DNA of 46,918 nucleotides from a virus. The DNA is taken from IMG/VR virus record IMGVR_UViG_3300007351_000366, positions 1 to 46,918 of that record; one strand, 5' to 3'. Each line of letters begins with the position of its first letter. The first letter of the stretch is position 1. This document shows, piece by piece, positions 4,332 to 46,907 of the stretch. The notes beneath the pieces were generated by a model, which saw only the letters and a list, made by a program, of their open reading frames with translations, was not told where the DNA came from and did not search any database. Position numbers and translations under genes: made by a program.

Positions 4332-7211
4332 TTGGCAAACGATTTAGACAACATCGTATCACAGATTGATATGCCACAGTGGTTTGAAATGCACGGGCTC
4401 AAAATTGTTAAGCGCAAGGGCAAGTCCTGGTCCTCTATGTGCCCCTTCTGCCATGACCCGAAGCATTTTTCTTTGAATCCGCAGACCGGCCTTTGGAAGT
4501 GCTGGAAGTGCAATGAGTCAGGGAATGCTATAACCTTCTATGCTAAGATCAAGAACACGGATAACAAGGCTGCGGTCAGCGCCATGAAAAAGATGCTCGG
4601 GATAGAGGATGAACCAAAACCAAAGAAGCCACGCAAAAAGAAGTCTCCGGAAGAACAGAAACCGGTTGACCTGCCGGATATCACGAAGCAGATCTACGAG
4701 AAGTTTTTCAGCCTGTTGCCACTGACCGACAAACACCGGGAAGAGTTTAAAGCCAAGCGGGGTTTTACAGATGCAACCATAAACCTGCTCCGATACCGGT
4801 CGGGCGGGGAGCATGTTGTAAGTATCGTTGACAAGCTCCGGGCAGAGTTTTCCAAAGAAGATATGCTAAATTCCGGGATCATCAAAAAAGCAAACAATGC
4901 AGTTATCATCGAAGAACAACTGCTGCAGGACGTTCCACTAATCCCATACATAAACGAGGAAAATATTATTTATCATGTCCGACCGCACAAGATAGGGTTT
5001 GAGAATTTTCCGGCACACCTGTACTGCTCCTTCCTCCTGAACGGCAAAGACCCCAAACACGTTGTGTTGACAGAGGGCGAATTTAAGGCTGGTGCCCTCC
5101 TGCAGTGGGGCATACCGGCCCTGGCTGAACCTGGTATATCATCTTTTGGCCGGAACCTGTTCGACCGCCTGGTAACGACCCTGCGCAAGCTCGGTGTGGA
5201 AGAAGCCACGGTTATTTTCGATAACGAAGTCAAGGATAATCCGGCCTACCCAAACTATAAGCCCCGGGCAGATAAAAGGTATGACACCCAGTTTTGGGCC
5301 TATATCACAGCCTATAACCTGAATAATGCAGGAATTTCGGCACAGGTGGGGACGCTGCCGGACGAATGGCGGGTTGATGGTAAGATCGATTTTGATATGG
5401 CCCTGGCCCAGGGGCACACCCGGGAGGAAATACTGGCGGTTATTAATGCTGCAATATCTCCAGAGGATTATTTAGTCCAGTTACCTGATGAAGCACTACG
5501 CATCATTAAGCGGAAAAAGGAGCGTTTTTTCGCCGGGACACTACCCATTAAGCGGGAGTTTAACCAATATGTCGTAACAAAAAAAACCCGGTCAGGCGGC
5601 GAGGAATATGACCAGATAATCTCCAACTTTGTTATCAATATCCGGTCAAGTTTTCATACTCCTTCCGGAGTAATCCGGAATGTTGAATTTGTGAACAAAC
5701 ATAATGAACGGTCAGAAATATTTACCATGGACCCCGGAGACATGGCAGGGCTCGATAGTTTCAAAAAGTTCTGCCTGGGCAAAGGGAATTATTTATTCAA
5801 AGGCCGAGCTGAAGATCTGAGTCTGATTTGGGAATATGAATTTATGCGGGACACGGGCGAAATTATCTACATGCCGGAGAAAATCGGGTACCTGGACAAT
5901 GGCCTTTGGCTTTTCGGCAATATGGCCATCAAAAAGGGTGAAGTTAAGTACCCGGACAATGACGGGATAATATGGCTATCAGGCAAAGGATATAAGCCTC
6001 AGAGCCTTCAAATCGGGGCCAGGGGTGAGCCGGTGGAGGATGTTATCCCAAGCCTTTACGAAGGTGAAGTCGATATTAGAGACATAGCCAGGAAGCTTTA
6101 TAACACGGTTGGTGGGTACGAGGCTTACATGGCTATAGGATGGGTTATTGGAACTATCTTTTCAAAAGACATCTTTGCCCGGTACAAGCTGTACCCAATA
6201 TTGTTCCCGCACGGAAAAAGAGAATCAGGCAAAAGTACATTTATGCGCTGGATACAGGCTTTTTTCGGGACCGAATCGGAGGGGGTTGCTGTTGGTGACA
6301 CAACTACGGCGAATTACATCGCACGGATATTATCATATTACAGCAGTCTCGGTGTCTGGTTTGATGAGTACCGTAATGAAACTAAAGTCATTCAAAAGGA
6401 CGGGTTTTTTAGATCAGCTTATAACCGGCAACTCAGCGGCAAGGGTACCGCCACTGCATTTCAAACACGAGGATTTACCGTTAATTCTACTGTGTCCATT
6501 TCGGGCGAAGAGTTACCCAGAGATAATGGCCTGTTTACGCGTCTTGTTCCTCTCCAAATCAGCACGAATAAAAGAAAAAGCACTAACGCGGATTCTCAGT
6601 TTGAATGGATCAATAAGCATTGTCAAAAATTCAGCGGTTTTGTGCGATACCTCATCGTCAATTATGACAGGTTGCTGCCCACCGTTCTTGAGCGAATATC
6701 CGGACTTAAAAAGTTTCTTACAGCCCTTGACATATCCGACAGAACCGCAGAAAACTGGGCCATTTGCGCCGGGGCGTTCGAAGCAGCAGTGTTTGAAGAT
6801 GATACGTTTATCGAATGGGTTGAGATTTCCTGCCAGGAAATTAGGCAGACCGGTGAGCAGGAGCACATGCTGAATCAGTTCTGGGATGATGTCCATTACA
6901 TGTTTGTTGAAGGGCAGCTCGGAGAAAATTATCTTAAGGTATCCGGAGACAGGCTGTATATTTGGCCCAAAGGTTTATATGAAGCGTGGACTATCCATTA
7001 CCGTAAAAAGACCGGCCGGGAACCATTTGATTATACTTCAATCATGCAGTATCTAAAGGATGAACAGTATTATCTGCCGGTGACTAAAACTATCAGAATG
7101 GGGCAGGGGCCCTGTCGGGTTATAGGTGTGGATATAAACAGTGCAACGGAGACAATTAAGGAACTGACGGAGAGAATCAGGGCCAAATATCCGCCTTCAA
7201 TGGATTTGTAA
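4332..7211 (+). CDS. Primase-helicase (CHC2 zinc finger, TOPRIM, ATPase)
   Basis: A 959-residue replication protein. Zinc-finger cysteines are C37, C40, C57 and C60 in a CHC2-like setting (MCPFC...LWKCWKC). A TOPRIM region follows at about residues 240-300, with LTEGEFKAGAL for the catalytic glutamate and VIFDNEV for the acidic pair. The C-terminal ATPase has Walker A HGKRESGKST at 627-636 and Walker B WFDEYRN with D678-E679. It should synthesise primers and unwind DNA at the phage origin. The start is TTG 4332 behind GAGGGGTG. The stop codon itself lies inside the first TGTAACA element of the repeat region, so the gene abuts the proposed origin. Confidence 0.9.
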   Translation: MANDLDNIVSQIDMPQWFEMHGLKIVKRKGKSWSSMCPFCHDPKHFSLNPQTGLWKCWKCNESGNAITFYAKIKNTDNKAAVSAMKKMLGIEDEPKPKKPRKKKSPEEQKPVDLPDITKQIYEKFFSLLPLTDKHREEFKAKRGFTDATINLLRYRSGGEHVVSIVDKLRAEFSKEDMLNSGIIKKANNAVIIEEQLLQDVPLIPYINEENIIYHVRPHKIGFENFPAHLYCSFLLNGKDPKHVVLTEGEFKAGALLQWGIPALAEPGISSFGRNLFDRLVTTLRKLGVEEATVIFDNEVKDNPAYPNYKPRADKRYDTQFWAYITAYNLNNAGISAQVGTLPDEWRVDGKIDFDMALAQGHTREEILAVINAAISPEDYLVQLPDEALRIIKRKKERFFAGTLPIKREFNQYVVTKKTRSGGEEYDQIISNFVINIRSSFHTPSGVIRNVEFVNKHNERSEIFTMDPGDMAGLDSFKKFCLGKGNYLFKGRAEDLSLIWEYEFMRDTGEIIYMPEKIGYLDNGLWLFGNMAIKKGEVKYPDNDGIIWLSGKGYKPQSLQIGARGEPVEDVIPSLYEGEVDIRDIARKLYNTVGGYEAYMAIGWVIGTIFSKDIFARYKLYPILFPHGKRESGKSTFMRWIQAFFGTESEGVAVGDTTTANYIARILSYYSSLGVWFDEYRNETKVIQKDGFFRSAYNRQLSGKGTATAFQTRGFTVNSTVSISGEELPRDNGLFTRLVPLQISTNKRKSTNADSQFEWINKHCQKFSGFVRYLIVNYDRLLPTVLERISGLKKFLTALDISDRTAENWAICAGAFEAAVFEDDTFIEWVEISCQEIRQTGEQEHMLNQFWDDVHYMFVEGQLGENYLKVSGDRLYIWPKGLYEAWTIHYRKKTGREPFDYTSIMQYLKDEQYYLPVTKTIRMGQGPCRVIGVDINSATETIKELTERIRAKYPPSMDL

Positions 7212-7569
7212 CATGGGGATGTTACAAATGTTACAGGTTTGTTACAGGGCTGTTACAGCCTAAAACCATATAAATCAAGGGTTCGCAGGGGGTGTAACAT
7301 TTGTAACATGTTTTGAAGGACAAAAATTTCTTGGCAACTTATAGGGCATGTCCAAAACAAATAAAATAAACTTTGTTAAATTGTAAAAATAAATATATAC
7401 CCCCAAAAAAGATGTTACAAATGTTACAGATACCCTGGTTGGGTATATAAACATAGAAACATCAACCATTTAAACCTGTAACATTGATTCTATGTTTCTG
7501 TAACAAATGTAACATGCCATTAGTGAAAGTGTTTAATATAAGTATTTTTAAGAGCATGATGATGTTACA
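7207..7569. repeat. TGTWACA repeat array, candidate replication origin, partition site or operator array
   Basis: Thirteen exact copies of TGTTACA or TGTAACA start at 7207, 7220, 7229, 7240, 7251, 7293, 7302, 7413, 7422, 7477, 7499, 7508 and 7563. Four pairs have a 9-bp period and form 16-bp units: TGTTACAAATGTTACA at 7220-7235 and 7413-7428, its reverse complement at 7293-7308, and TGTAACAAATGTAACA at 7499-7514. Between them is a very AT-rich stretch (about 7350-7400) that could be an unwinding element. The whole 415-base gap between the primase stop and the next gene has no coding capacity. The position after a primase-helicase and before a small DNA-binding protein fits iterons or a centromere. 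Confidence 0.8.
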
Positions 7570-7607
7570 AAGAGTTAGTTACCAATAAAAACCAGTAGGG
7601 GTATATA
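7394..7607. repeat. Second repeat family, TATATACCC / GGGTATATA, three copies
   Basis: TATATACCC occurs at 7394-7402 and its reverse complement GGGTATATA at 7441-7449 and 7599-7607. The middle copy is also one arm of a dyad ATACCC-N5-GGGTAT (7430-7446). These sites alternate with the TGTWACA units in the same intergenic region, which suggests that a second protein binds here or that they mark an unwinding or entry site. Confidence 0.5.
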
Positions 7608-7626
7608 TAGCATGGTTTATTTTGGC

Positions 7627-7875
7627 TTATCCCAGTCCTATTAAGAGGTTTTGGTATTTTTTAATAAGACGCTTATGATAATATTCGGTTAGTTCATTAA
7701 CAATTTGAGATATTTTTTCTTCGTTAAATTCCTCGTGATTGGTTTTAATATAATCTGCAATACCTTTTTTAAAAAGAATAATTACCTCATCATAGCTTAA
7801 ACCAAAATCTCTGATAAGTTTTATTATCTCCTGTTCTTCCTTTGTAACCCTTAACACGACATCTTTTTTTGACAT
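7627..7875 (-). CDS. Small ribbon-helix-helix (CopG/Arc-like) DNA-binding protein
   Basis: An 82-residue protein on the opposite strand to its neighbours. Residues 4-12 (DVVLRVTKE) form the beta strand, about 13-25 helix A, and about 29-45 helix B (SYDEVIILFKKGIADYI), the classic ribbon-helix-helix order. Residues 50-82 form a basic C-terminal helix. Such dimers bind short repeated DNA sites. The TGTWACA array lies downstream of its stop, and three more copies lie directly upstream of its start (7897-7927), so self-repression plus binding of the array is the simplest reading. The ribosome site AAGGAGG lies 9-10 bases before the ATG. Confidence 0.75.
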   Translation of the reverse strand: MSKKDVVLRVTKEEQEIIKLIRDFGLSYDEVIILFKKGIADYIKTNHEEFNEEKISQIVNELTEYYHKRLIKKYQNLLIGLG

Positions 7876-7898
7876 CTAACCGGCCTCCTTAATATTTG
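7869..7898 (+). promoter_or_regulatory. Possible rightward promoter, TTGACA -35 with weak -10
   Basis: TTGACA at 7869-7874 is followed after 18 bases by TATTTG (7893-7898). The first TGTTACA element of the operator cluster overlaps the proposed -10. It would drive the + strand genes from 7957. The -35 is perfect but the -10 is poor, so the call is tentative. Confidence 0.35.
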
Positions 7899-7927
7899 TT
7901 ACATATATTGTAACAAATAATGTAACA
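7897..7927. promoter_or_regulatory. Three phased TGTWACA operator-like sites between divergent genes
   Basis: TGTTACA at 7897-7903, TGTAACA at 7909-7915 and TGTAACA at 7921-7927 start exactly 12 bases apart, in the 81-base gap between the ribbon-helix-helix gene and the rightward gene at 7957. The same heptamer makes up the large array on the other side of the regulator gene. The regular phasing and placement fit a self-regulatory operator controlling both directions. Confidence 0.65.
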
Positions 7928-7956
7928 AATAGCAATATGAAAAGGGGTGGAAACCT

Positions 7957-8406
7957 ATGTCTGATAGGTATTCGCGGCTACTTGCAAAGAAAAAAGCGGG
8001 CTCAAAAACAGGCGAAACCACTGTTACAGAAAAAAGTAATGCAAATAATGTATCAGATAACACAACAGATCCCCGCAGCGATTTAAAAAATGACCACTTT
8101 TTTTGGGAAGAACTGCTCATAAATAGTAAACAAATGTTCCCGGAAGTATTTCCAACCTTGCACGGTATAAGATGTTCCGGTGCCGGACTGGCCAAGACTG
8201 ATACAAGAGGACTTAAGCTGTTACCAGGTGAAAATACGCCGAAAGAATGGGAGGATACTAAAACGCGCTGGCTGGCACCTATCCGGGAGCAGTTGGTGAA
8301 ATTGCTACAGGTTACATCAATGGGCAGGCTGGAAGATGGTGAGTTTCCGGTTTTGCCTCAACCGGAACAGACTTCATTAAGAGATGCCTGGCTGAAGGGA
8401 AGGTGA
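7957..8406 (+). CDS. Hypothetical protein, 149 aa
   Basis: Starts with ATG behind AAAAGGGGTGG, 7-8 bases away. Residues 1-45 are basic then Thr/Ser/Asn-rich and probably disordered. The folded part starts near FFWEELLINSKQMFPEVFPTL and includes GIRCSGAGLA and a tryptophan-rich TKTRWLAPIREQLVKLL helix. I do not recognise a characterised family. As the first gene right of the operator cluster it is probably controlled by the ribbon-helix-helix protein. An additional TGTTACA lies inside it at 8022. Confidence 0.75.
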   Translation: MSDRYSRLLAKKKAGSKTGETTVTEKSNANNVSDNTTDPRSDLKNDHFFWEELLINSKQMFPEVFPTLHGIRCSGAGLAKTDTRGLKLLPGENTPKEWEDTKTRWLAPIREQLVKLLQVTSMGRLEDGEFPVLPQPEQTSLRDAWLKGR

Positions 8407-8740: not shown

Positions 8741-9046
8741 ATGAAGACTACTGGTATTGTAAGAAAGATTGATCAGTTAGGCCGGGTTGTAATTCCGATT
8801 GAATTAAGGAGAACCCTGGGGATCGATGAAAAGGATTCACTGGAATTCTTTGTTGACGGTAATAAGATTATTCTCAGAAAATATGAACCCGACTGTATTT
8901 TCTGTAGCAACACTAATGATATTATGGTTTTTCGAGGGAAGAGGGTTTGTAAAATCTGTGTCAGGATTCAAGGGCAGATGGTGGATGAGTTGAAATCGGA
9001 GGAAAAAAACAATGAGGTGGGCAAACCCAAAAAAGAAAAGAAATAA
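8741..9046 (+). CDS. SpoVT/AbrB-type transcriptional regulator with C-terminal zinc-ribbon cysteines
   Basis: Residues 1-48 are a canonical AbrB swapped-hairpin DNA-binding domain (GIVRKIDQLGRVVIPIELRR, then LGIDEKDSLEFFVDGNKIIL). They are followed by two Cys pairs, CIFC near residue 53 and CKIC near residue 75, a combination common in AbrB proteins of clostridial hosts and their phages. The tail is basic and disordered. The role is transition-state-like transcription control; its target in the phage is unknown. The ribosome site GGGGAGG lies before the ATG. Confidence 0.88.
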   Translation: MKTTGIVRKIDQLGRVVIPIELRRTLGIDEKDSLEFFVDGNKIILRKYEPDCIFCSNTNDIMVFRGKRVCKICVRIQGQMVDELKSEEKNNEVGKPKKEKK

Positions 9047-35726: not shown

Positions 35727-38700
35727 ATGCCCTGGATCAAGGATGAGAACGGAAGAGATATATTGGTACCGGAAGGCGGGTTTGATTATTTTCGGAAAAA
35801 CAAAAGCGTTCCCACTCAAGGGAGCGCTTTTGGTGTTTCCGGTGGTATCCCGGCTAATGTTCCCGGTGAAGAAACGAGCGGGTGGACTCAGGATGTGAAC
35901 GGCAACCATGTTTTGATTCCGGCTGGAGGCTTTGATTATTTTAAAAAGAAGGCAACAATACCTAACCTTCCACCAGAGACATTGCCTGGGGGGGCAGTTC
36001 CGGCCCCTGCCACGTCCGAACCAGTTTTTAATACTTCTATGCCCTCCGGACCGGTTAATATTGATGTTAGGACCGGCAAACCAACAAGATCAGTAATGCC
36101 GACATCACAGCCCGGAACACAGGAGCCGTTTATCATAAACAATCCCAGTTTGCCGGGGAATGCTGTCCCAACCATAGAGGATGTTGTTCATGCCCAAGAT
36201 CCTTTACTTGTATCACCGGGAAGTCAAACAGCAGCGCAAAGGGCTATGCAGAGTGCAACTGTTCCGGGCCTTATTCAGAAACCTCTGGAAGCATTGGGCG
36301 AAACTGATACCTTTAAGTCACTTATTGCCGGGATGTATTCCAATATTCCTATGTATTATGGTGGTGGTATGGAGTGGCTTGGTGATAAGTTTGATGTTGA
36401 CACTCTGAGTGGAAAAGGGAAAAATATTCGGGAATTCGGTGAAACCACTGCCGAACGATATGCCGACCCAGACTGGGCGCAGCCCATTGAATTTGAGAGT
36501 TGGGGACAAGCTCTTACGGATCCCCGTTTTTATACCCGAAATGTTATGAGAAATGTTCCCTTGATGGCATCTCTCCTTATTCCAACGGTTTTAGGTGCTG
36601 AGGCTGGTGGGCTTGTAGCCGGGGCAGCCGGATGGAGCAAGTTGGGCAGCTTAGGGAAATGGGGAACAAAATTACTGAGGGTTATTGGCGGTCTTTCCGG
36701 GGGCGTACCATTAGAATCTGCATTAGAAGCCGGGGGAGTTTATACTGAAGCAAAAAACAGAGGTTTGTCAGAAGAAGAAGCAATGCAGGCCGCCGATGAT
36801 GCTTTTACAAAGAACGCTGCTTTGTTGTCAGTGACAAACTTGCCGGAATTAGCTGCCATGTTTAGTCCGGCTCCTAAATGGCTGGTGAAAATGCTTGGGA
36901 CAGCAGCGGATTCTAAATTGGGAAGAGCAGCAGTAGGAGCCGGTAGGATTGGTATGGCCGGAGTGTCCGAAGGGCTGGAGGAAGGCGCACAGGAAGTAAT
37001 CCAGCGCAGTTCTTTGGGTGATGAAATCAGTTTTGACCCGGCTATGCAGGAATCTATTGCACAGGGGTTGGTTCTTGGTGGTGGCCCTGGTATCATTGGT
37101 GCCCTTCAACATGAAATGCAGACCCGGGCCTATGGCAAAGCATCTAAGGAAGCCAAAAAGTTTCTGGAAACTGCCGTTGATGAAAAAGTTAAGGCCGGTG
37201 TGTCCGTAGAGGAAGCGGTAAAACAGGTGTTTGATGAGTTTGCCGGAACCGAGGAAGGCGACAAGGTTGTCGGCGAATCAATGCAGGAAGTACTTCAGGA
37301 TGTTGCGGACGTGGAAAGGGTAGCGGCTGAGAAGCAGAAGAGTAGGCAGGAGGGACAACAACCGGAGGGACAGCAGGCACAGCCTGTAATACAGCCGGTG
37401 CAGAAGCCTGTTCAGCAGACACAGGAGCCTGTTCAGCCGGTGCAGCAACCAGAAATACAACCGATTCAGGAGCCTGTGTCCGTACAGGCAGAACCAGAAC
37501 CGGTTACAGGGTCGACTGTTAAACCTGTGGAAACTGGTCAGAAACCTATTGAAAAACCTGTCAAGGAGCCCGTAAAATATGGTAAAAGAGGTAATAGAGT
37601 TTTAAAGAAATTAGCACAAGTGTCTGGTTTGGATTTATCTGACCCGGATAATTCAGACGTGGCAGATTTGATAGATTTCTTTGAAACATATTACAGTGCA
37701 GGGCTGGAAGGTAGAAATATCCCCGAAATAACTATGCACCCGCAGGACGCTAATGAAGCATATAATGCGGGCAGACTAGACAATGAAGGTCAGCCTGAAG
37801 AACCCACAAAACAACCTGCGAAATATGGCAGAATCGGGAACAATGTCTTCAAGAAATGGGCTAACAATGAGTATGTTATGGCAGATTTGGACAAGTCGGA
37901 TGATCCATATGTGCAGGCATATAGACAGTTCTTTGAAAAATGGTATCAGGCGGGAAAAGAAGGTATTAGAACAATTGATGTACCTTTTGACCAGGAAATA
38001 GATTCACAGTTTCCGCATTTCTTGACCCAACTGTTTTATCAGGCAGGCAGCGCAGATGTAAGGGCTCAACCTTCAAAGGAAGTTTCTGTACAACCTGAAA
38101 TCCAAAAGGCAAAAGAACTCGAAACAAAGTCAGTCGAGCAGGTTAAGACGGTTGATGAAGCACAAAAACCTAAAAAATCTACCAACATTGGATACCATGC
38201 CGGAGACTTAGGAAAAGCTGAACACCTTGCAAGGTTCCACGGTTCAAACAGGGGAACCGGGCATTTTGGTACCGGAACCTATTTTGTGGGAAGCAAAGAA
38301 GCAGTAAATTTGGGTAATTATAAAGATAGGCCCGTTCAAGAAATTAACTTTGATGGGTATAACCTATATAGACCAGATGGTCATAATCAAGCAAACAATC
38401 TGCATGAAGGCTTGAAATTCATTAATGACTCCACTAATTTTTATAAACCGGGAATGACGTTAGAACAGCTTCTTGAAGCTCAGGCCAAAGGAAAGGATGA
38501 CTACCGAGCTGAGGCGTTTCAAAACAGGTTTAAAGACCTATATTCTTTGTTTTACAGAGATTTTGGCATTGAAGAATTTAGTCCTTATCGAAAAGGTCAA
38601 GAGTTTTTTGAAAAAGCCCTTATCCCGATATTGGATGAAATCTACAACGAAGTTAGCGGTTCGGGATTGAAATGGGCTTACGAAAAAGCTGATTCTGCTT

Positions 38701-41700
38701 CTACACGTTTTATGAAAAAACTCGGTTATGAAGGGGTGGATGTCAGGGGAATAAAAGGATTTGATAATACTCAGTATGGAAGCGTTATTTATGACCTCCG
38801 AGTTGAACAAGAAGAAGTTGCCAAAATTGGGGAAACTGAGGTACAATCAAAGCAAGAGGAGCCTGTTGTTGAGGAATCAAAGCCAGAAGAACGGGCCACT
38901 CCAAGCAGAAAAGTGGCAATTGCCGTTAAGGATATACTGGTACAAGGCCAAAAATTTACTTCCGCTGAGCTATTTAAGATTGCCGACCAGTTCTTTGAGG
39001 GTACTCAGGCGGAGAAGAAATACACTTCCAAAGATGCTTATGATGCTTTGGAATTGGGAGTTAACCTCTACCTGTTGGAACATAAAAAGAGTGTTGGCCC
39101 GATGGTTAGTGCTGAGCAGGCTAAACGTATCTTAGAATCTATCAGGCAGGAAATATTGGAGGTAATCCCCACTCAAACCAAGAGGACAGAAGAACAGGAT
39201 AGATTACAACAGTTTTCCACTCCTCCCAACATAGCTTATATTGCCGCATGGGTAGCAAATATTTCATCGAGGGATGTTGCGTTGGAACCCAGCGCAGGGA
39301 TTGGTGGTTTAGCTGTATTTGCAAAATCCGCCGGCGCAAAAGAGGTTATTGTTAATGAGTTTTCTCCCAGACGTGCTGAAGTATTAAAGGAAATGGGGTT
39401 TGATCGGGTATTCACTGAGAATGCTGAACAGTTAAATAATGTGTTACCAAAAGACATCAAGCCTACCGTTATTATAATGAATCCGCCGTTTTCATCAACC
39501 GCCAGGATAAGAAGTAAAAACGATACTAAAAACGCTATTCTACACATAGAGCAGGCTTTAAAGAAGCTGGCTCCCGGAGGCAGGTTGGTGGCGATTGTTG
39601 GCCAGGGGATGTCTGACAGTGCCGCAAACTTCAAAGGTTGGTGGAACAAACTACGGGAAACTTACAACATTCGTGCTAATATAGTCATAAATGGGAAGAA
39701 TTATACCAAATATGGCACTAACTTTGGTGTTCAGTTGGTAGTAATTGATAAAACAGGACCGCTGCCAAAAGGAGTTAATAGCACAGTTGTTAAGAGCGTA
39801 GACTTGTTGGAAGATGCACTTCCTTTATTGGAGGGGATTAAGAATGACCGGATTACATCAGAGAATAGACAGACTCAACAGGCAACCGATAAACCTGTTG
39901 GCGAAAAACCTGCTGAACAAGGCAGGCCAGAAACCGGACCCGAGCCTGCTGTACCTGTATCAACTGATCAACTGGGGACTACAGACCGGGAAGGTGGAGC
40001 CGAACAACCCGGAGAACAGGAACGAATACCACGATCTGAGACAACAAGCGGAAAAACTCCTGTATCACATGAACCCGGAACAGGCAATGAACCTTCTGAC
40101 CAAGGAAGGCCCGGATCAGGGGAACCGGCAGGAAGCGTGGGTCAATCCCAAGAGGCTGGCCAGGAAGACACCGCTGGAAGCAGCGGAGTACCTGACGGAA
40201 AGACTGATGTACGCACTCCAGCAGAAGCAGCCAAAGAACCCGGAAGCGGAACAGTAAAAACTACAAAGACCGAGATTGAAGTTAAATCAGAGAAAACAAA
40301 AACTACTAACCAGGAATTAACGGATGCAGTCTTTACTGATTATGCGCCGCAAAAACTGAAAATCACCGGGGCTAAGCAACATCCCGGCGCACTTGCCCAA
40401 AGCGCAGCTATGGCTGCAGTGGAACCGCCAACACCAACTTATACCCCTAACTTGCCAAAAGAGATTATAAGTGAAGGAAAACTGTCATTAGCTCAGCTTG
40501 AATCTGTTGTCTATGCCGGACAATCACACCAGCAAACCCTTCCAGACGGAACAAGGAAGGGTTTCTTTATTGGGGATGGTACCGGTGTTGGTAAAGGCCG
40601 GGAGATTTCTGGTATAATTTTGGACAATATTCGCCAGGGACGCAAAAAAGCTGTCTGGATAAGTAAGAACGGTATTCTGTTTGAAGATGCGCAAAGAGAC
40701 TTCGGGGACATTGGTGGAGACAAAAACACTGTTTTTGAATTTAACAAAATAAAAATGGGCACCCCGGTCAAGCAAAAGGACGGGGTTTTGTTTACAACTT
40801 ATGATACTCTTGGTCAAGGCCTAAGCTCTTCTAACACCGGTGAGCTGATTGTTAAGGAAGGTAAATCTGCAAGGATTGATCAGGTAATAAATTGGCTGGG
40901 TAAGGATTTCGATGGGGTTATTGTTTTTGACGAAGCTCATCAAATGCAGAACAGTATAACCCAAAAAGGAAAACGTGGGGCAAAAAAACCTTCCACCAGG
41001 GCACTTGCTGGCATAGAACTACAAAAACGCTTGCCTAATGCCAGGATAGTTTATGTTTCAGCAACCGGGGCCACTGAGGTTTCAAATTTAGCTTATGCTG
41101 ACCGGTTGGGTCTTTGGGGGGAAGGCACTCCGTTTGCCAACAAGCTTGATTTCATTGACAAGGTTCAGGCCGGTGGGTTAGCGGCAATGGAGCTGGTTGC
41201 CCGCGACATGAAGGCCATGGGCGCTTATATTGCCCGTAACCTGAGCTATGACGGAGTAACCTATGGTACGCTTGAACATAATCTTACCCCTGAACAGACG
41301 GAAATATATGATGAAATGGCTAAGGCGTGGCAGATTGTCCTGCAAAACGTTAATAAGGCACTGGAAGAAACCGGTCAGGGCAAAGACGGTCACTCCAAGG
41401 GCAGGGCCATAGGTCAGTTTTGGGGGGCCCAGCAGAGATTTTTTAATCAGGTACTAACTTCCGTCCAGATGCCTTCAGTGGTTGAACAGGTAAAAAAAGA
41501 TCTGGCAAACGGAAACGCTGTTGTAATGCAATTGGTTAACACTAATGAGGCAGCTCAGAACAGGGCCATTTCCAAGATGAATGAAGAAGACAGTTTGGAA
41601 GATTTGGATCTTACACCCCGGGATATGTTGATGCAGTATCTTGATAAGAGTTTTCCCATTCAACAATATGAAGAGTATGAAGACGATAATGGCAACATCC

Positions 41701-44700
41701 GGTCAAGACCCGTTGTTGACAGTCACGGTAATCCGGTTATAAACCAGGAAGCAATGGAAATGAAGGAAGATCTTCTGTCAAAACTGGGTGCGTTAAAAGT
41801 ACCGGAAGGCCCGTTGGAAATTATTTTGAATGAGTTTGGAACTGAAATGGTTGCCGAAGTTACCGGACGTACCCGCAGGGTTGTTCGTGAGTCAGATGAT
41901 GGCGGGCGCACGAAGGCAAAGCTTGAATCAAGAACACCGAAACATGCTTCAGCTGATGCTCAGGCTTTTCTTGATGATAAGAAAAAGATACTGGTTTTCT
42001 CTGATGCCGGTGGAACCGGACGCAGTTACCATGCCTCTCTTAAAGAAAAAAACCAGCGGCGCAGGATTCATTATCTGATTCAAGCCGGTTGGAGAGCAGA
42101 TAACGCTGTCCAGGGTTTCGGAAGAACTCACCGGACTAATCAGGCGAATGCCCCTCATTATATATTGGTTACCACTAACCTAAAGGGGCAAAAACGGTTT
42201 ATTTCATCTATTGCCAGAAGGTTGGATCAGTTAGGAGCGCTGACTAAAGGGCAGAGGCAAACCGGCAGTCAAGGGCTTTTTAGCGCTAAGGATAACCTTG
42301 AAAGTGATCTGGCCAGGGATGCCTTGCAGCAGTTTTATGAGGATTTAGCCAGAGAACTGATCGAAGGGGTTACCGCCAAAGAACTGTTATCCAAAATGGG
42401 CCTGTCAAAAATGCTCGATGAAAACAGAAACGTTAGTAACGAAAACCCTGACTTAAGGGATATTACCAAATTCCTTAACCGTATTCTGGCTCTTGAGTCC
42501 ACACTGCAAAATAAGATTTTTGAAGAATTTACCGAAAGACTTGACGCTAAGGTTGAAAAAGCCATTGCCGATGGAACCCTTGATGTCGGTTTAGAGAATT
42601 ACCGGGCCGACAAAGTTGTGGTATCTGAAGAGAAGTCTGTATTTGTTGATGAATCGTCCGGAGCTGAAACAAAATATTTTGCACTCGAAGCTTATCATAA
42701 AAACAAAAAGGTTTCTTTTGAAAATGCTTCACGGTTGCCAAAGTTAAAGGGTTTTTACAGGAACACTAAAAGTGACCGGGTTTATGCAGTTAAAAGATAT
42801 GGTCACAGGACACTGACCAGTGGTAGCGTGGTTGAGATCTATCAGGTTCAGGGTCAGGCGCAGTCAAGCAGCCACAATATAACCAGGCCCGATTTTGAGA
42901 AAGGGAACTGGGAAGAAATCCCTGAGTCAGAAGCCGAAAAAGCATGGAATGAAGCACTGGAAAAGGTTCCGGAATTTCGTATTGACAAGGTTAACCTGAT
43001 AAGCGGCGCGCTGCTTCCTATTTGGGATAGACTGCCGACAGGTCATGTTAGGGTTATCCGTGTTAAAACCGAGGATGGCCGGATGCTGTTGGGCCGCATT
43101 GTGCCCGAAAAAGCAATCGACCTGACATTAAAGAAGCTCGGTGCCAACAGGGTAAAACAAGAGGTATCTCCGGCAGAAATAGCTGACAAGATATTAAACG
43201 AGAATTATACCGTCTACTTGTCAAACGAGTGGAAACTAGTAAAACGCAGGGTTTCAGGGGAAAATCGCATTGAGATAATTGGCCGTGATCTTTATACGCA
43301 TATGGGCCAGTTAAGGAATGAAGGGGTTTTCACTGAGCGCATAAACTGGGACACAAGGTTTTTTATCCCGACAGGGGAAGAAGCCGCGCGGGTGATTGAA
43401 AAAGTAACCAAGTACAGGCCCGTGGTGGATATGGTCTCTCCGGACGCAAGCGGAGAGTTTTCATTAGCTGCCAAGAAAAAAAAGTCCAAAAAGAAAAAAT
43501 CTAAAAAACCTGCTCCTACCATTGACAAAGAACTTACTGATCCTAACGAATTAATCACCAGGGCCGAGAACATTTCTCCCAAGGCAGCCCGCAAGATGGG
43601 TGAAAAACTGGCCCAGCTGCTCAACACAGTCCTCCGTTCCGGCAGGCACACCAGGGGGACGGAAGGTTCGTTCAGCAAAAAATCCAAGACCGGCAAAATC
43701 AGAAAACCTAAAACTGAAAACTGGCGGGTTATGGGCCATGAGTTAGCTCATGGTATTTCTTTTATCCTTCTTGATGAAGCCAAGTTCAAGCCCAGGAAGT
43801 CTGAGATGTGGGATATCGCCGAAGAGATGTATCCCGGCCAGATTCCGGAAGGCCAGAAGACCCAGGAGGGCCTTGCCGAATACCTGATGTTGTGGTTCTC
43901 CGACAACAAGACGGCCCGCGAAATGGCCCCGGTTACATCTGAACTGTTTGATGAGTTCCTGGACAATAATCCTCAGATTGGAACACAGTTTGATGAAATC
44001 CTGGCTATTGCTGAACTTGACCTTGAAGGAGATATTCTGGCTCAAATGGCCAATTTAATAGCAAAACCGGGCGAACGGGTTAAAGTTAATATTGGGGACG
44101 AATACGCTGTTCCATGGTTTAAGAAACTGCAGTTCCAGTTAGCAGACTTCACTATACCCCTAAAAGACCTGTACCGGGCTGCTGTTGAACAGGGATTTGA
44201 GGGACTTGACCCGGCAAAACTGGCAGCGGTTTCAGGTTCGGCCAGAGAGAAGGCTACTAACCTGTTCTCGGGTTCGGCCAGGGATGAAGCCGGCAGGTTC
44301 CTTCTTCCCGGAAAACGTTCTCTCCGGGAAATAGTCGAAGATGCAGCGCAAATCCCTCACGGCGTTCAATTGATGGATTGGATATACCATGCCATGAGAT
44401 ACCAGGAACGGTACAAGGTGATGGAAGAATCGAAAGGAACGAAGCAATTCGAACTACCCAAAACAAAGGCTTATTTTGACGAAGTGGTTGAGCAGGCCCG
44501 CGACAGGTATCCTGAAATGGTTAAACTTGTTGAAGAATATGCCGAAATTCTTAGCGAGATTAACCTGCGCCTGCTGGTCCGGGGTGAAGTAATAAGCGAA
44601 GAAGATGCCGATTATATCCGGGCCGGTTCAAAGTATTATTTGCCCTTGTACCATGTCGGTGAACAGGAGTATCACGGCTCAGGTAACAACAGGCGGGCTT

Positions 44701-46907
44701 CCGGTGAAGGTGTGCGCCGGTTTAAGGGACATGAAGGGCAGACAATGAATTTCATTGAGGCATCCATCATCAGGCTCAACGATACAGTCCTGGCGGTAGA
44801 GATTGAAAGGCTTATGCAGTCCATAGAAGGGGCTCTCAGGCAGCCTAACATGGGTCTGTTCGGTGACTTTATTCAGGCGCCCATTAAATCTGTATCTGTA
44901 TCCGCGGAGGACATAGTAAAACACCTTAACGGAGAAATAAGCATTGAGGACGAGGAACGGGTTATTAGAATGTTTATACCCGGCGGATTGCGTGACATAA
45001 GTCAAAGGGAAACCATTTTAATGGCGCGTCACGGCGGGCGGCATGTTTATATGAGGGTGGCGCCGGATATTTACCGGGCAGCCCTTTCCATGAAGCCTAT
45101 AACCGTTGACATTGTTGCCAAGACCCTTGCCTATTTAACACAGATAGGCCGGTTCGGGGCCCTGGCCAACATCAGATATATAACCAACGCTGTCATGCGT
45201 GACATTATTGTTTCCAAGATACAGTCTAAGGCCGGTATGGGTGAACGGTCCCTGATAGCTGATTTCATCAAAGGTGTTGCTACTGCCGTTGGCATGAACC
45301 CCGAGGTTATGGACATGTATATTCAGTCCGGTGGATATGGTTCTTCGCCACAGGAAGTCATTAACGGGGTCCTGCGGGCATCGGTAAGCGATGGGCTGAT
45401 GGCAACTCCGGTACCGGGATGGAAACGGACAGCAACCGGGGCCCTGGTCAGGGTGGTTACTTCACCACTGGAAGCACTCCGGATTCTTGAAGAAATGCCC
45501 AGGCTGGCTGAATTTGAAGCAGTATTAAAAAGGGATCTTGAACCATTAGGGGTGTCTTATGAAGATTTTATGGCCGGTGACGTTCCGGATGAACTGGCCC
45601 CGGACGTGGAAAAAGCTCTGCTGGAAGCTGCATATGCTTCGCGGGAGATCCTTGTCAACTTCGGTCTTCACGGTATCCATGAAGGGTTTAGGAAATATGC
45701 CCGGACGGTTCAGTTTATGCAGGGCAGTATCCAGGGTGTTTACAGGTTCGGCCGGCAAATAAAAGATAAGCTTTATACAACATTAATGAGGATGGCTATT
45801 TACATGGCTCCGTTGACTATTTTGGCCTGGATGCTGTCCGCTGACGATGATAAGTATAAGGATATGCCCTCCGAATCCCGTGACCGGTATTGGTGGTTCC
45901 CTGTACCGGGGGCTAAGGACTTCCGGATTGCCCTGGCAAAACCGTATGAATATGCGTTACCGGCTAATATGCTGGAACGGTTCCTTGATTGGGCCTCTAA
46001 TAATGACCCAAACAGCAGGAAACTGTTATCTGATTTTAGAACAGCTGTTAAAACATCATTTGGCATCCCCATGACTTCTATGCTGGTAGATACGATAATC
46101 AGCCTTTATTCGGGCAAAAACTCTTTTGGGAGCCCGATTGAACCGGAACGGGAGCAGAATTTGTTGCCGCAGGAAAGGTATGGCACCGGCACATCAAAGT
46201 TTGCCATCAATATGGCGAAGGTTGTTGGTGCAGTTACCGAGAAGGGACCAAGCCCCAGGGTTATTGACTATTTCATGAAAAACTCCTTCGGCGGTATTGG
46301 TAAAACAGTGACCAACATCCTCAGTAACCCGCTGAACCCGCTTAAATGGTTGAAGGGTGATGACAGGCCGGGGGTGGAATACTGGCCGGTTATAGGTTCC
46401 CTTATTTATGGTTCCGGTGAGGGCGGCAGCCGGATTGTGGATAGGTTCTACGAAGACAAGACAAGGGCTGAACAGCTTTATAAATCATCGGGACTTTGGC
46501 GGAAACAATGGGAGGATCAGGCCAGGGCGAAAGGGCTGTCACCGGAAGAAACCGCGAATTTTGTTAACGAGAACCTCCGCAAAAGGCTCAAAGAAGAAGA
46601 TGTCCGGTTGATATTGTCTATCCCGGTCCGCAACATGTTTGCCAAAGAAATGTCTGACATGCGGGCTGCCCAAAGAGATATGGCAAAACGCACCGACATT
46701 TCGCCGGAGCAGAAAAAGATATTCAACCTGAGAATGAGCTATCTGCAAAAGCTGGCAGCCGGGTATCTCTACCAGAGGCCGATACCGGAGGCTCCTCCTG
46801 AAGCGGAATTAACTGACGTACAGATTCAGGACATGCTGAAATATTATGATTACAAGGTGCAAAGGGCAATAACCAATGCCCTTAAAACCAAGGGTGGACC
46901 AGTGTAA
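35727..46907 (+). CDS. Giant polyvalent virion protein: ART-like, N6-adenine methyltransferase, Sno-type helicase, HEXXH and LPD38 domains
   Basis: A 3726-residue protein, probably packed in the virion and ejected with the DNA to counter host defence, like P1 DarB. Order: two short repeats with GGFDYF (1-26, 52-76); glycine/alanine hydrophobic segments (about 272-336); Q/P linker (532-616); an 81-residue tandem duplication (617-690, 698-780); an ADP-ribosyltransferase-like domain (820-1028, with YHAG, GTGHFGTGTYF and YGSVIYDL); a methyltransferase (1150-1390) with LEPSAGIGG near 1187 and NPPF at 1252; a low-complexity linker (1375-1528); a Strawberry-notch helicase with GDGTGVGK at 1616-1623, DEAH at 1735 and QGFGRTHR near 2129; a lysine tract (about 2583); HELAH at 2671-2675; an LPD38-type end (2960-3455). 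AGAGGGGG precedes the ATG. Confidence 0.9.
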   Translation: MPWIKDENGRDILVPEGGFDYFRKNKSVPTQGSAFGVSGGIPANVPGEETSGWTQDVNGNHVLIPAGGFDYFKKKATIPNLPPETLPGGAVPAPATSEPVFNTSMPSGPVNIDVRTGKPTRSVMPTSQPGTQEPFIINNPSLPGNAVPTIEDVVHAQDPLLVSPGSQTAAQRAMQSATVPGLIQKPLEALGETDTFKSLIAGMYSNIPMYYGGGMEWLGDKFDVDTLSGKGKNIREFGETTAERYADPDWAQPIEFESWGQALTDPRFYTRNVMRNVPLMASLLIPTVLGAEAGGLVAGAAGWSKLGSLGKWGTKLLRVIGGLSGGVPLESALEAGGVYTEAKNRGLSEEEAMQAADDAFTKNAALLSVTNLPELAAMFSPAPKWLVKMLGTAADSKLGRAAVGAGRIGMAGVSEGLEEGAQEVIQRSSLGDEISFDPAMQESIAQGLVLGGGPGIIGALQHEMQTRAYGKASKEAKKFLETAVDEKVKAGVSVEEAVKQVFDEFAGTEEGDKVVGESMQEVLQDVADVERVAAEKQKSRQEGQQPEGQQAQPVIQPVQKPVQQTQEPVQPVQQPEIQPIQEPVSVQAEPEPVTGSTVKPVETGQKPIEKPVKEPVKYGKRGNRVLKKLAQVSGLDLSDPDNSDVADLIDFFETYYSAGLEGRNIPEITMHPQDANEAYNAGRLDNEGQPEEPTKQPAKYGRIGNNVFKKWANNEYVMADLDKSDDPYVQAYRQFFEKWYQAGKEGIRTIDVPFDQEIDSQFPHFLTQLFYQAGSADVRAQPSKEVSVQPEIQKAKELETKSVEQVKTVDEAQKPKKSTNIGYHAGDLGKAEHLARFHGSNRGTGHFGTGTYFVGSKEAVNLGNYKDRPVQEINFDGYNLYRPDGHNQANNLHEGLKFINDSTNFYKPGMTLEQLLEAQAKGKDDYRAEAFQNRFKDLYSLFYRDFGIEEFSPYRKGQEFFEKALIPILDEIYNEVSGSGLKWAYEKADSASTRFMKKLGYEGVDVRGIKGFDNTQYGSVIYDLRVEQEEVAKIGETEVQSKQEEPVVEESKPEERATPSRKVAIAVKDILVQGQKFTSAELFKIADQFFEGTQAEKKYTSKDAYDALELGVNLYLLEHKKSVGPMVSAEQAKRILESIRQEILEVIPTQTKRTEEQDRLQQFSTPPNIAYIAAWVANISSRDVALEPSAGIGGLAVFAKSAGAKEVIVNEFSPRRAEVLKEMGFDRVFTENAEQLNNVLPKDIKPTVIIMNPPFSSTARIRSKNDTKNAILHIEQALKKLAPGGRLVAIVGQGMSDSAANFKGWWNKLRETYNIRANIVINGKNYTKYGTNFGVQLVVIDKTGPLPKGVNSTVVKSVDLLEDALPLLEGIKNDRITSENRQTQQATDKPVGEKPAEQGRPETGPEPAVPVSTDQLGTTDREGGAEQPGEQERIPRSETTSGKTPVSHEPGTGNEPSDQGRPGSGEPAGSVGQSQEAGQEDTAGSSGVPDGKTDVRTPAEAAKEPGSGTVKTTKTEIEVKSEKTKTTNQELTDAVFTDYAPQKLKITGAKQHPGALAQSAAMAAVEPPTPTYTPNLPKEIISEGKLSLAQLESVVYAGQSHQQTLPDGTRKGFFIGDGTGVGKGREISGIILDNIRQGRKKAVWISKNGILFEDAQRDFGDIGGDKNTVFEFNKIKMGTPVKQKDGVLFTTYDTLGQGLSSSNTGELIVKEGKSARIDQVINWLGKDFDGVIVFDEAHQMQNSITQKGKRGAKKPSTRALAGIELQKRLPNARIVYVSATGATEVSNLAYADRLGLWGEGTPFANKLDFIDKVQAGGLAAMELVARDMKAMGAYIARNLSYDGVTYGTLEHNLTPEQTEIYDEMAKAWQIVLQNVNKALEETGQGKDGHSKGRAIGQFWGAQQRFFNQVLTSVQMPSVVEQVKKDLANGNAVVMQLVNTNEAAQNRAISKMNEEDSLEDLDLTPRDMLMQYLDKSFPIQQYEEYEDDNGNIRSRPVVDSHGNPVINQEAMEMKEDLLSKLGALKVPEGPLEIILNEFGTEMVAEVTGRTRRVVRESDDGGRTKAKLESRTPKHASADAQAFLDDKKKILVFSDAGGTGRSYHASLKEKNQRRRIHYLIQAGWRADNAVQGFGRTHRTNQANAPHYILVTTNLKGQKRFISSIARRLDQLGALTKGQRQTGSQGLFSAKDNLESDLARDALQQFYEDLARELIEGVTAKELLSKMGLSKMLDENRNVSNENPDLRDITKFLNRILALESTLQNKIFEEFTERLDAKVEKAIADGTLDVGLENYRADKVVVSEEKSVFVDESSGAETKYFALEAYHKNKKVSFENASRLPKLKGFYRNTKSDRVYAVKRYGHRTLTSGSVVEIYQVQGQAQSSSHNITRPDFEKGNWEEIPESEAEKAWNEALEKVPEFRIDKVNLISGALLPIWDRLPTGHVRVIRVKTEDGRMLLGRIVPEKAIDLTLKKLGANRVKQEVSPAEIADKILNENYTVYLSNEWKLVKRRVSGENRIEIIGRDLYTHMGQLRNEGVFTERINWDTRFFIPTGEEAARVIEKVTKYRPVVDMVSPDASGEFSLAAKKKKSKKKKSKKPAPTIDKELTDPNELITRAENISPKAARKMGEKLAQLLNTVLRSGRHTRGTEGSFSKKSKTGKIRKPKTENWRVMGHELAHGISFILLDEAKFKPRKSEMWDIAEEMYPGQIPEGQKTQEGLAEYLMLWFSDNKTAREMAPVTSELFDEFLDNNPQIGTQFDEILAIAELDLEGDILAQMANLIAKPGERVKVNIGDEYAVPWFKKLQFQLADFTIPLKDLYRAAVEQGFEGLDPAKLAAVSGSAREKATNLFSGSARDEAGRFLLPGKRSLREIVEDAAQIPHGVQLMDWIYHAMRYQERYKVMEESKGTKQFELPKTKAYFDEVVEQARDRYPEMVKLVEEYAEILSEINLRLLVRGEVISEEDADYIRAGSKYYLPLYHVGEQEYHGSGNNRRASGEGVRRFKGHEGQTMNFIEASIIRLNDTVLAVEIERLMQSIEGALRQPNMGLFGDFIQAPIKSVSVSAEDIVKHLNGEISIEDEERVIRMFIPGGLRDISQRETILMARHGGRHVYMRVAPDIYRAALSMKPITVDIVAKTLAYLTQIGRFGALANIRYITNAVMRDIIVSKIQSKAGMGERSLIADFIKGVATAVGMNPEVMDMYIQSGGYGSSPQEVINGVLRASVSDGLMATPVPGWKRTATGALVRVVTSPLEALRILEEMPRLAEFEAVLKRDLEPLGVSYEDFMAGDVPDELAPDVEKALLEAAYASREILVNFGLHGIHEGFRKYARTVQFMQGSIQGVYRFGRQIKDKLYTTLMRMAIYMAPLTILAWMLSADDDKYKDMPSESRDRYWWFPVPGAKDFRIALAKPYEYALPANMLERFLDWASNNDPNSRKLLSDFRTAVKTSFGIPMTSMLVDTIISLYSGKNSFGSPIEPEREQNLLPQERYGTGTSKFAINMAKVVGAVTEKGPSPRVIDYFMKNSFGGIGKTVTNILSNPLNPLKWLKGDDRPGVEYWPVIGSLIYGSGEGGSRIVDRFYEDKTRAEQLYKSSGLWRKQWEDQARAKGLSPEETANFVNENLRKRLKEEDVRLILSIPVRNMFAKEMSDMRAAQRDMAKRTDISPEQKKIFNLRMSYLQKLAAGYLYQRPIPEAPPEAELTDVQIQDMLKYYDYKVQRAITNALKTKGGPV
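39844..40257 (+). CDS. Candidate overlapping gene nested in the giant gene, 137 aa
   Basis: In the +1 frame relative to the giant gene, ATG 39844 has GGAGGGG (39830-39836) at ideal distance and an uninterrupted frame to TAA 40255-40257. The product looks like a genuine helical protein: MTGLHQRIDRLNRQPINLLA, then PDPSLLYLYQLINWGLQTGK, then DLRQQAEKLLYHMNPEQAMN, then PLEAAEYLTERLMYALQQ. In exactly this span the giant protein reads as disordered Gly/Glu/Pro/Thr/Gln-rich linker, so the linker frame seems to yield to the other frame. An unused frame in a low-complexity region is the alternative. No homologue is recognised. Confidence 0.5.
   Translation: MTGLHQRIDRLNRQPINLLAKNLLNKAGQKPDPSLLYLYQLINWGLQTGKVEPNNPENRNEYHDLRQQAEKLLYHMNPEQAMNLLTKEGPDQGNRQEAWVNPKRLARKTPLEAAEYLTERLMYALQQKQPKNPEAEQ

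Follow-up and report, generated by a model that had tools for sequence, protein, structure and literature searches.

A probable iteron origin directly after a phage primase-helicase gene, with a conserved layout and a changing repeat word

The C-terminal domain of Rep from the staphylococcal pathogenicity islands (SaPIs) recognises iterons situated directly downstream of its own gene (PMC7581432), and the origins of phage-inducible chromosomal islands (PICIs) lie 3′ of rep, where two iteron sets flank AT-rich DNA (PMC6092414). In the satellite-phage literature, this origin organisation is described as shared by no other known replicon. Here we describe a similar arrangement in the whole IMG/VR virus record IMGVR_UViG_3300007351_000366 (46,918 bp; this entire stretch of DNA is called the window below), in which an array of the heptamer TGTWACA follows the gene of a primase-helicase. 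We consider it very likely that this array is an iteron replication origin and that it is read by the C-terminal winged helix of the upstream primase-helicase.

Like the SaPI/PICI Rep–ori systems, the window has a candidate origin 3′ of an initiator gene, with iteron sets around AT-rich DNA; by position, an initiator helicase gene with a candidate origin immediately 3′ of it is found both in the window and in its relatives. Unlike these satellites, the window is a phage (about 47 kb, with a P22-type portal) that encodes its own virion, and the primase part of its initiator is of the DnaG type. It encodes a terminase, a P22-type portal and a major head protein, and is thus not a satellite in the sense of an element devoid of its own virion genes. 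The alpha protein of P4 combines primase and helicase in one chain and reads short iterons through a winged-helix domain at its C-terminus that binds the origin (Yeo et al. 2002, cited in PMC4234260), and the window protein resembles it in its primase–AAA+ helicase layout with a predicted C-terminal winged helix. P4 differs from the window in having separate ori and crr sites and another iteron, and P4 alpha was absent among the fold matches listed for the primase C-terminus. The C-terminal domain of Cch2 also binds repeats directly downstream of its own gene (PMC7581432). A Cch protein of the staphylococcal cassette chromosome mec (SCCmec) is the best fold match of the window primase C-terminus; however, the Cch2 site has three iterons only and belongs to a different element. 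In pRN1 (orf56/orf904), a required element lies just downstream of the replication protein gene, and the replicon also encodes a small transcriptional repressor (PMC4234260). The pRN1 element differs from that of the window in being a stem-loop, in which no iterons were found, and the repressor gene is upstream in the operon.

We located 16 exact copies of TGTWACA within 7207–7927 of the window (Table 1), the full number reported in an initial annotation of this DNA. The number expected in the segment was 0.17 from base composition, and 2000 dinucleotide shuffles averaged 0.33 copies, with a maximum of 3. A 17th copy is found at 8022, within the next gene, and 25 copies occur in the whole window, where shuffling gives 6.1 on average. 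The final codon of the primase gene and its stop codon are both covered by the first copy, and the spacings of the exact copies run 13, 9, 11, 11 / 42 / 9 / 111 / 9 / 55 / 22, 9 / 55. The array holds four 9-bp paired units, two per orientation. The start in the primase stop codon and the geometry of pairs, 11-bp run and 12-bp triplet agreed with those described in the initial annotation. Two iteron sets are thereby present on either side of AT-rich DNA, as in the SaPI/PICI type of origin.

Table 1. Features of the primase-helicase gene and the array region (positions in the window)
Feature	Position	Strand	Remarks
DnaG-type primase fused to AAA+ helicase	4332..7211	+	959 aa; proposed initiator
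Primase C-terminal winged-helix domain	6876..7187	+	residues about 849-952; predicted; proposed word reader
Predicted recognition helix	about 7032-7061		in the primase C-terminal domain
Predicted wing	about 7089-7133		in the primase C-terminal domain
Left outer block	7207..7257		five TGTWACA words (starts 7207, 7220, 7229, 7240, 7251), 13, 9, 11, 11 bp apart; 11-bp run = 7229/7240/7251
Left inner pair	7293..7308		words (starts 7293, 7302) 9 bp apart
AT-rich core between inner pairs	7309..7412		104 bp, 74% AT; proposed melting region
Right inner pair	7413..7428		words (starts 7413, 7422) 9 bp apart
Right arm words	7477..7569		starts 7477, 7499, 7508, 7563 (spacings 55, 22, 9, 55 bp)
82-residue open reading frame, putative ribbon-helix-helix	7627..7875	-	strong Shine-Dalgarno (AAGGAGG)
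12-bp-phased triplet	7897..7927		starts 7897, 7909, 7921; 30 bp before the next open reading frame; proposed distal end of right arm
Conserved next open reading frame	7957..8406	+	149 aa; after the array in 15/21 loci

The primase matches Zn_ribbon_DnaG and the PHROG family 'DNA primase'. In the model of its last 190 residues (AlphaFold2, 24 homologues), helices precede a winged helix, and the predicted local distance difference test (pLDDT) score was about 90–97 in the winged-helix region. The best fold match of this C-terminus in the PDB was the SCCmec Cch helicase (5dgk; probability 0.97, E = 0.005), and the second was an Orc1/Cdc6 initiator on origin DNA (E = 0.035). We propose that the primase-helicase would bind the heptamers via its winged helix and that two assemblies, one per mirror-image half, would load onto the DNA to the left and right of the AT-rich core and then open it, a mechanism already put forward for SaPI Rep. 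The sequence comparison described below shows the position of the array, its spacing ruler, its mirror symmetry and the divergence of the words; from these we infer binding, melting and replication.

Next, we compared the DNA following related primases. A profile search gave 30 loci, and 27 primase loci, including the window, were analysed; an array was called when a 6-mer was enriched above all 60 shuffles within 700 bp after the primase stop. Such arrays were observed directly after the primase stop in 22 of these 27 loci, the window among them, and control regions were flat. As L228 and L234 are near-duplicates, 21 arrays were taken into the further comparison. The nearest first-round relative, L007, whose primase is 56% identical, does not have a TGTWACA array; repeats of TGGGACA and TGGGATCA occupy the matching place after its primase. 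The lack of TGTWACA in L005–L008 had at first suggested that relatives have no array after their primases, a conclusion overturned by this other word of L007. The words of the relatives include GGTTACG, CGTTCCA, TGGGACA, TGAGCCA, TGTACCA, GGTAACA, TGAACCA and TTACCCA, and also GGTTGCA, TATTACA, GTGGACA, CGGAACA and GGTTAGA, among others. These words were oriented and trimmed by hand with the window as guide, and most of the trimmed words fit xGnnnCR.

In most of the arrays, an outer block with ∼11-bp phasing is followed after ∼45 (or 55) bp by a pair spaced 8–9 bp, then by ∼100 bp of AT-rich DNA and by the mirror image of the same elements. A ruler consisting of a pair (7–9 bp), a core (60–130 bp), a second pair and flanks of 40–58 bp on both sides fitted 16 of the 21 arrays, whereas the same numbers of sites placed randomly fitted it in a mean of 0.8 and a maximum of 4 arrays (200 trials). 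The gap between the inner pairs of the relatives is 94–120 bp. The initial annotation had suggested looking for a conserved array in related phages, and what we found conserved after the primase is the layout, with the word changed. Among the gene families near the array, the primase alone is common to all 21 loci; as the loci were fetched by their primase, what counts here is the absence of any other family common to all of them. Phage integrases are carried by 10 of 23 related records and P22-type portals by 3; the origin thus occurs with more than one lifestyle and more than one virion type. In four loci (L229, L230, L231 and L239), the DNA that separates the left outer block from the inner pair also contains an element like ACCAANGGTTTNAGGG, a fainter form of which is seen in the window at about 7255–7290.

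The words of the window flank the 82-residue gene, with three of them within its promoter region, and plasmid par loci have a similar combination of a small regulator and an array. On this basis, the protein might bind the array as a partition centromere or operator and repress its own gene, an explanation that we regard as highly improbable. Homologous arrays with the same layout lack the protein (20 of 20 other array loci), no ParA-like gene was present among the genes scanned, and the promoter triplet lies where the relatives have their right-arm outer words, so that self-regulation need not be invoked for it. Searches of Pfam, PHROG and NCBIfam gave nothing significant for the protein, and no homologue was found in viral contigs, plasmids, seven related phage records or the other array loci; a single weak hit (E = 8e-4, 31% identity) came from a search of 398 genomes. 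Its best PDB sequence matches were designed helical repeats, and a single-sequence structure model was of low confidence (pLDDT 60) and was not used. For this lack of co-conservation, we rejected the protein as the main reader of the array. The initial annotation had offered an iteron origin or a centromere, with this one small protein reading two spacings and regulating itself; comparison with the relatives gave good support to the iteron origin and spoke against the role given to the protein. A regulator kept with the repeats lost, which the annotation had named as a refutation, was not seen: the relatives keep the array, lack the regulator and have the heptamer replaced. As judged from this comparison of loci, the right arm probably acquired the 82-residue gene by a later insertion, and the origin would not need it. 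In L251, a small Xre-like open reading frame on the minus strand lies between the primase stop (7111) and the array, and word-like copies are found close to the 5′ end of this frame; this is an insertion similar to the 82-residue gene of the window.

The array could also be regulatory: the initiator, bound to the triplet, would control both the early operon downstream and the small gene. This reading is compatible with that of an origin, and we hold it to be possible though rather unlikely. In several relatives, words with 10–12-bp phasing end 17–68 bp before the next conserved open reading frame (start codons were picked automatically and some are uncertain), and the Xre-like frame of L251 adjoins its own array. 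However, the layout of an origin alone also explains these word positions.

Several observations weigh against the reading of the array as an origin served by the primase-helicase. Five primase homologues (L243, L244, L245, L247 and L252) have no array at this place. The Foldseek match to the Cch helicase, with E = 0.005, is not below 0.001. The correlation of word with C-terminus was weak over all loci (r 0.15, P 0.08), and remained weak as a partial correlation controlled for the core (r 0.23, permutation P 0.009). Within the window's primase family, close pairs did not show a C-terminal excess of differences over the whole protein. The weak correlation, together with the co-occurrence of the 149-aa next open reading frame in 15 of the 21 loci, would suit a different reader of the words, another phage protein or a host protein. 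We consider this improbable: six array loci lack the next open reading frame, and the words differ among close relatives, which makes a host factor unlikely. Even where the helicase core is nearly identical, the word can differ: L232 and L235 have a helicase core distance of 0.02 and the words TGTACCA and TTACCCA, and L229 and L231, at a distance of 0.08, have CGTTCCA and TGAGCCA.

A further locus, L257 (primase stop at 6110), is a natural switch of the word in one of the other primase families whose genes adjoin TGTWACA arrays (see below). Its primase is 96% identical to those of L092/L011 and its word is TGTATAC instead of TGTAACA, with eleven of its words sitting 0–2 bp from the word positions of L092/L011. 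We observed that 12 of the 39 residue differences fall in the last 26 of its 869 residues (P = 7e-11), compared with 1 of 21 in a pair with the same word. The DNA beyond the array is almost unchanged despite the switch of the word, which argues against a reader encoded there. A caveat for the primase-helicase as reader is that the C-terminal end and the array of L257 may have been exchanged together as one recombined segment. From the comparison of these sequences, L257 is nevertheless a case in which the primase C-terminal end and the array travel together, even if by one recombination, and L257 versus L092/L011 offers a ready-made natural experiment.

We also searched for the TGTWACA array pattern by motif only, and obtained 100 stretches of viral DNA and at least 118 stretches of genomes. 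Some of these have the look of in-frame coding repeats. Many of the non-coding arrays begin no more than about 100 bp from where a large open reading frame ends. For 9 of 10 such phage genes the product is a primase or a helicase, and several families are represented. The primases and helicases encoded by these large open reading frames include members of DUF5906, VapE, DUF927, Prim-Pol and D5_N, and L153, a primase beside a TGTWACA array, has a Cch helix-turn-helix domain. These loci carry neither the primase of the window nor the 82-residue protein. The spacing pattern was observed 26 times in the motif-selected loci, against a mean of 12 and a maximum of 22 for permuted spacings, a result that is suggestive only, because several of the loci are near-duplicates. 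Four candidates (L013, L021, L047 and L074) were rejected as origins, their copies being spaced in multiples of 9 bp and looking like coding repeats. In our literature search, we saw no paper in which TGTTACA or TGTAACA was given as the origin word of a phage. Short non-coding TGTWACA clusters were also seen in Bacteroidales genomes (L110, L112, L114, L116, L117, L119 and others), where they recur on several contigs of one genome, seemingly without a link to a primase; they may be dispersed elements of a different kind, regulatory or repetitive.

An origin of this kind would extend an organisation known from phage satellites to virion-encoding phages, and its TGTWACA form to several primase families. 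We see about an even chance that these loci represent a widespread class in full phages, in which a mirror-symmetric ruler stays fixed and the word changes together with the winged helix of the initiator, making origins mutually private even among close relatives. If so, the collected pairs would make up a protein-to-word table that can be decoded, and could account for exclusive replication when phages co-infect a cell. Since the word alone varies over a constant spacing, about 20 natural initiator–word pairs are usable for studying the DNA choice of winged helices, and they could show whether changes of the word make phage origins mutually exclusive.

Elsewhere in the window, a MazE-like antitoxin domain protein is encoded at 8741–9046, shortly after the origin region, and a single open reading frame of 3726 residues (35727–46907) fills the last 11 kb.
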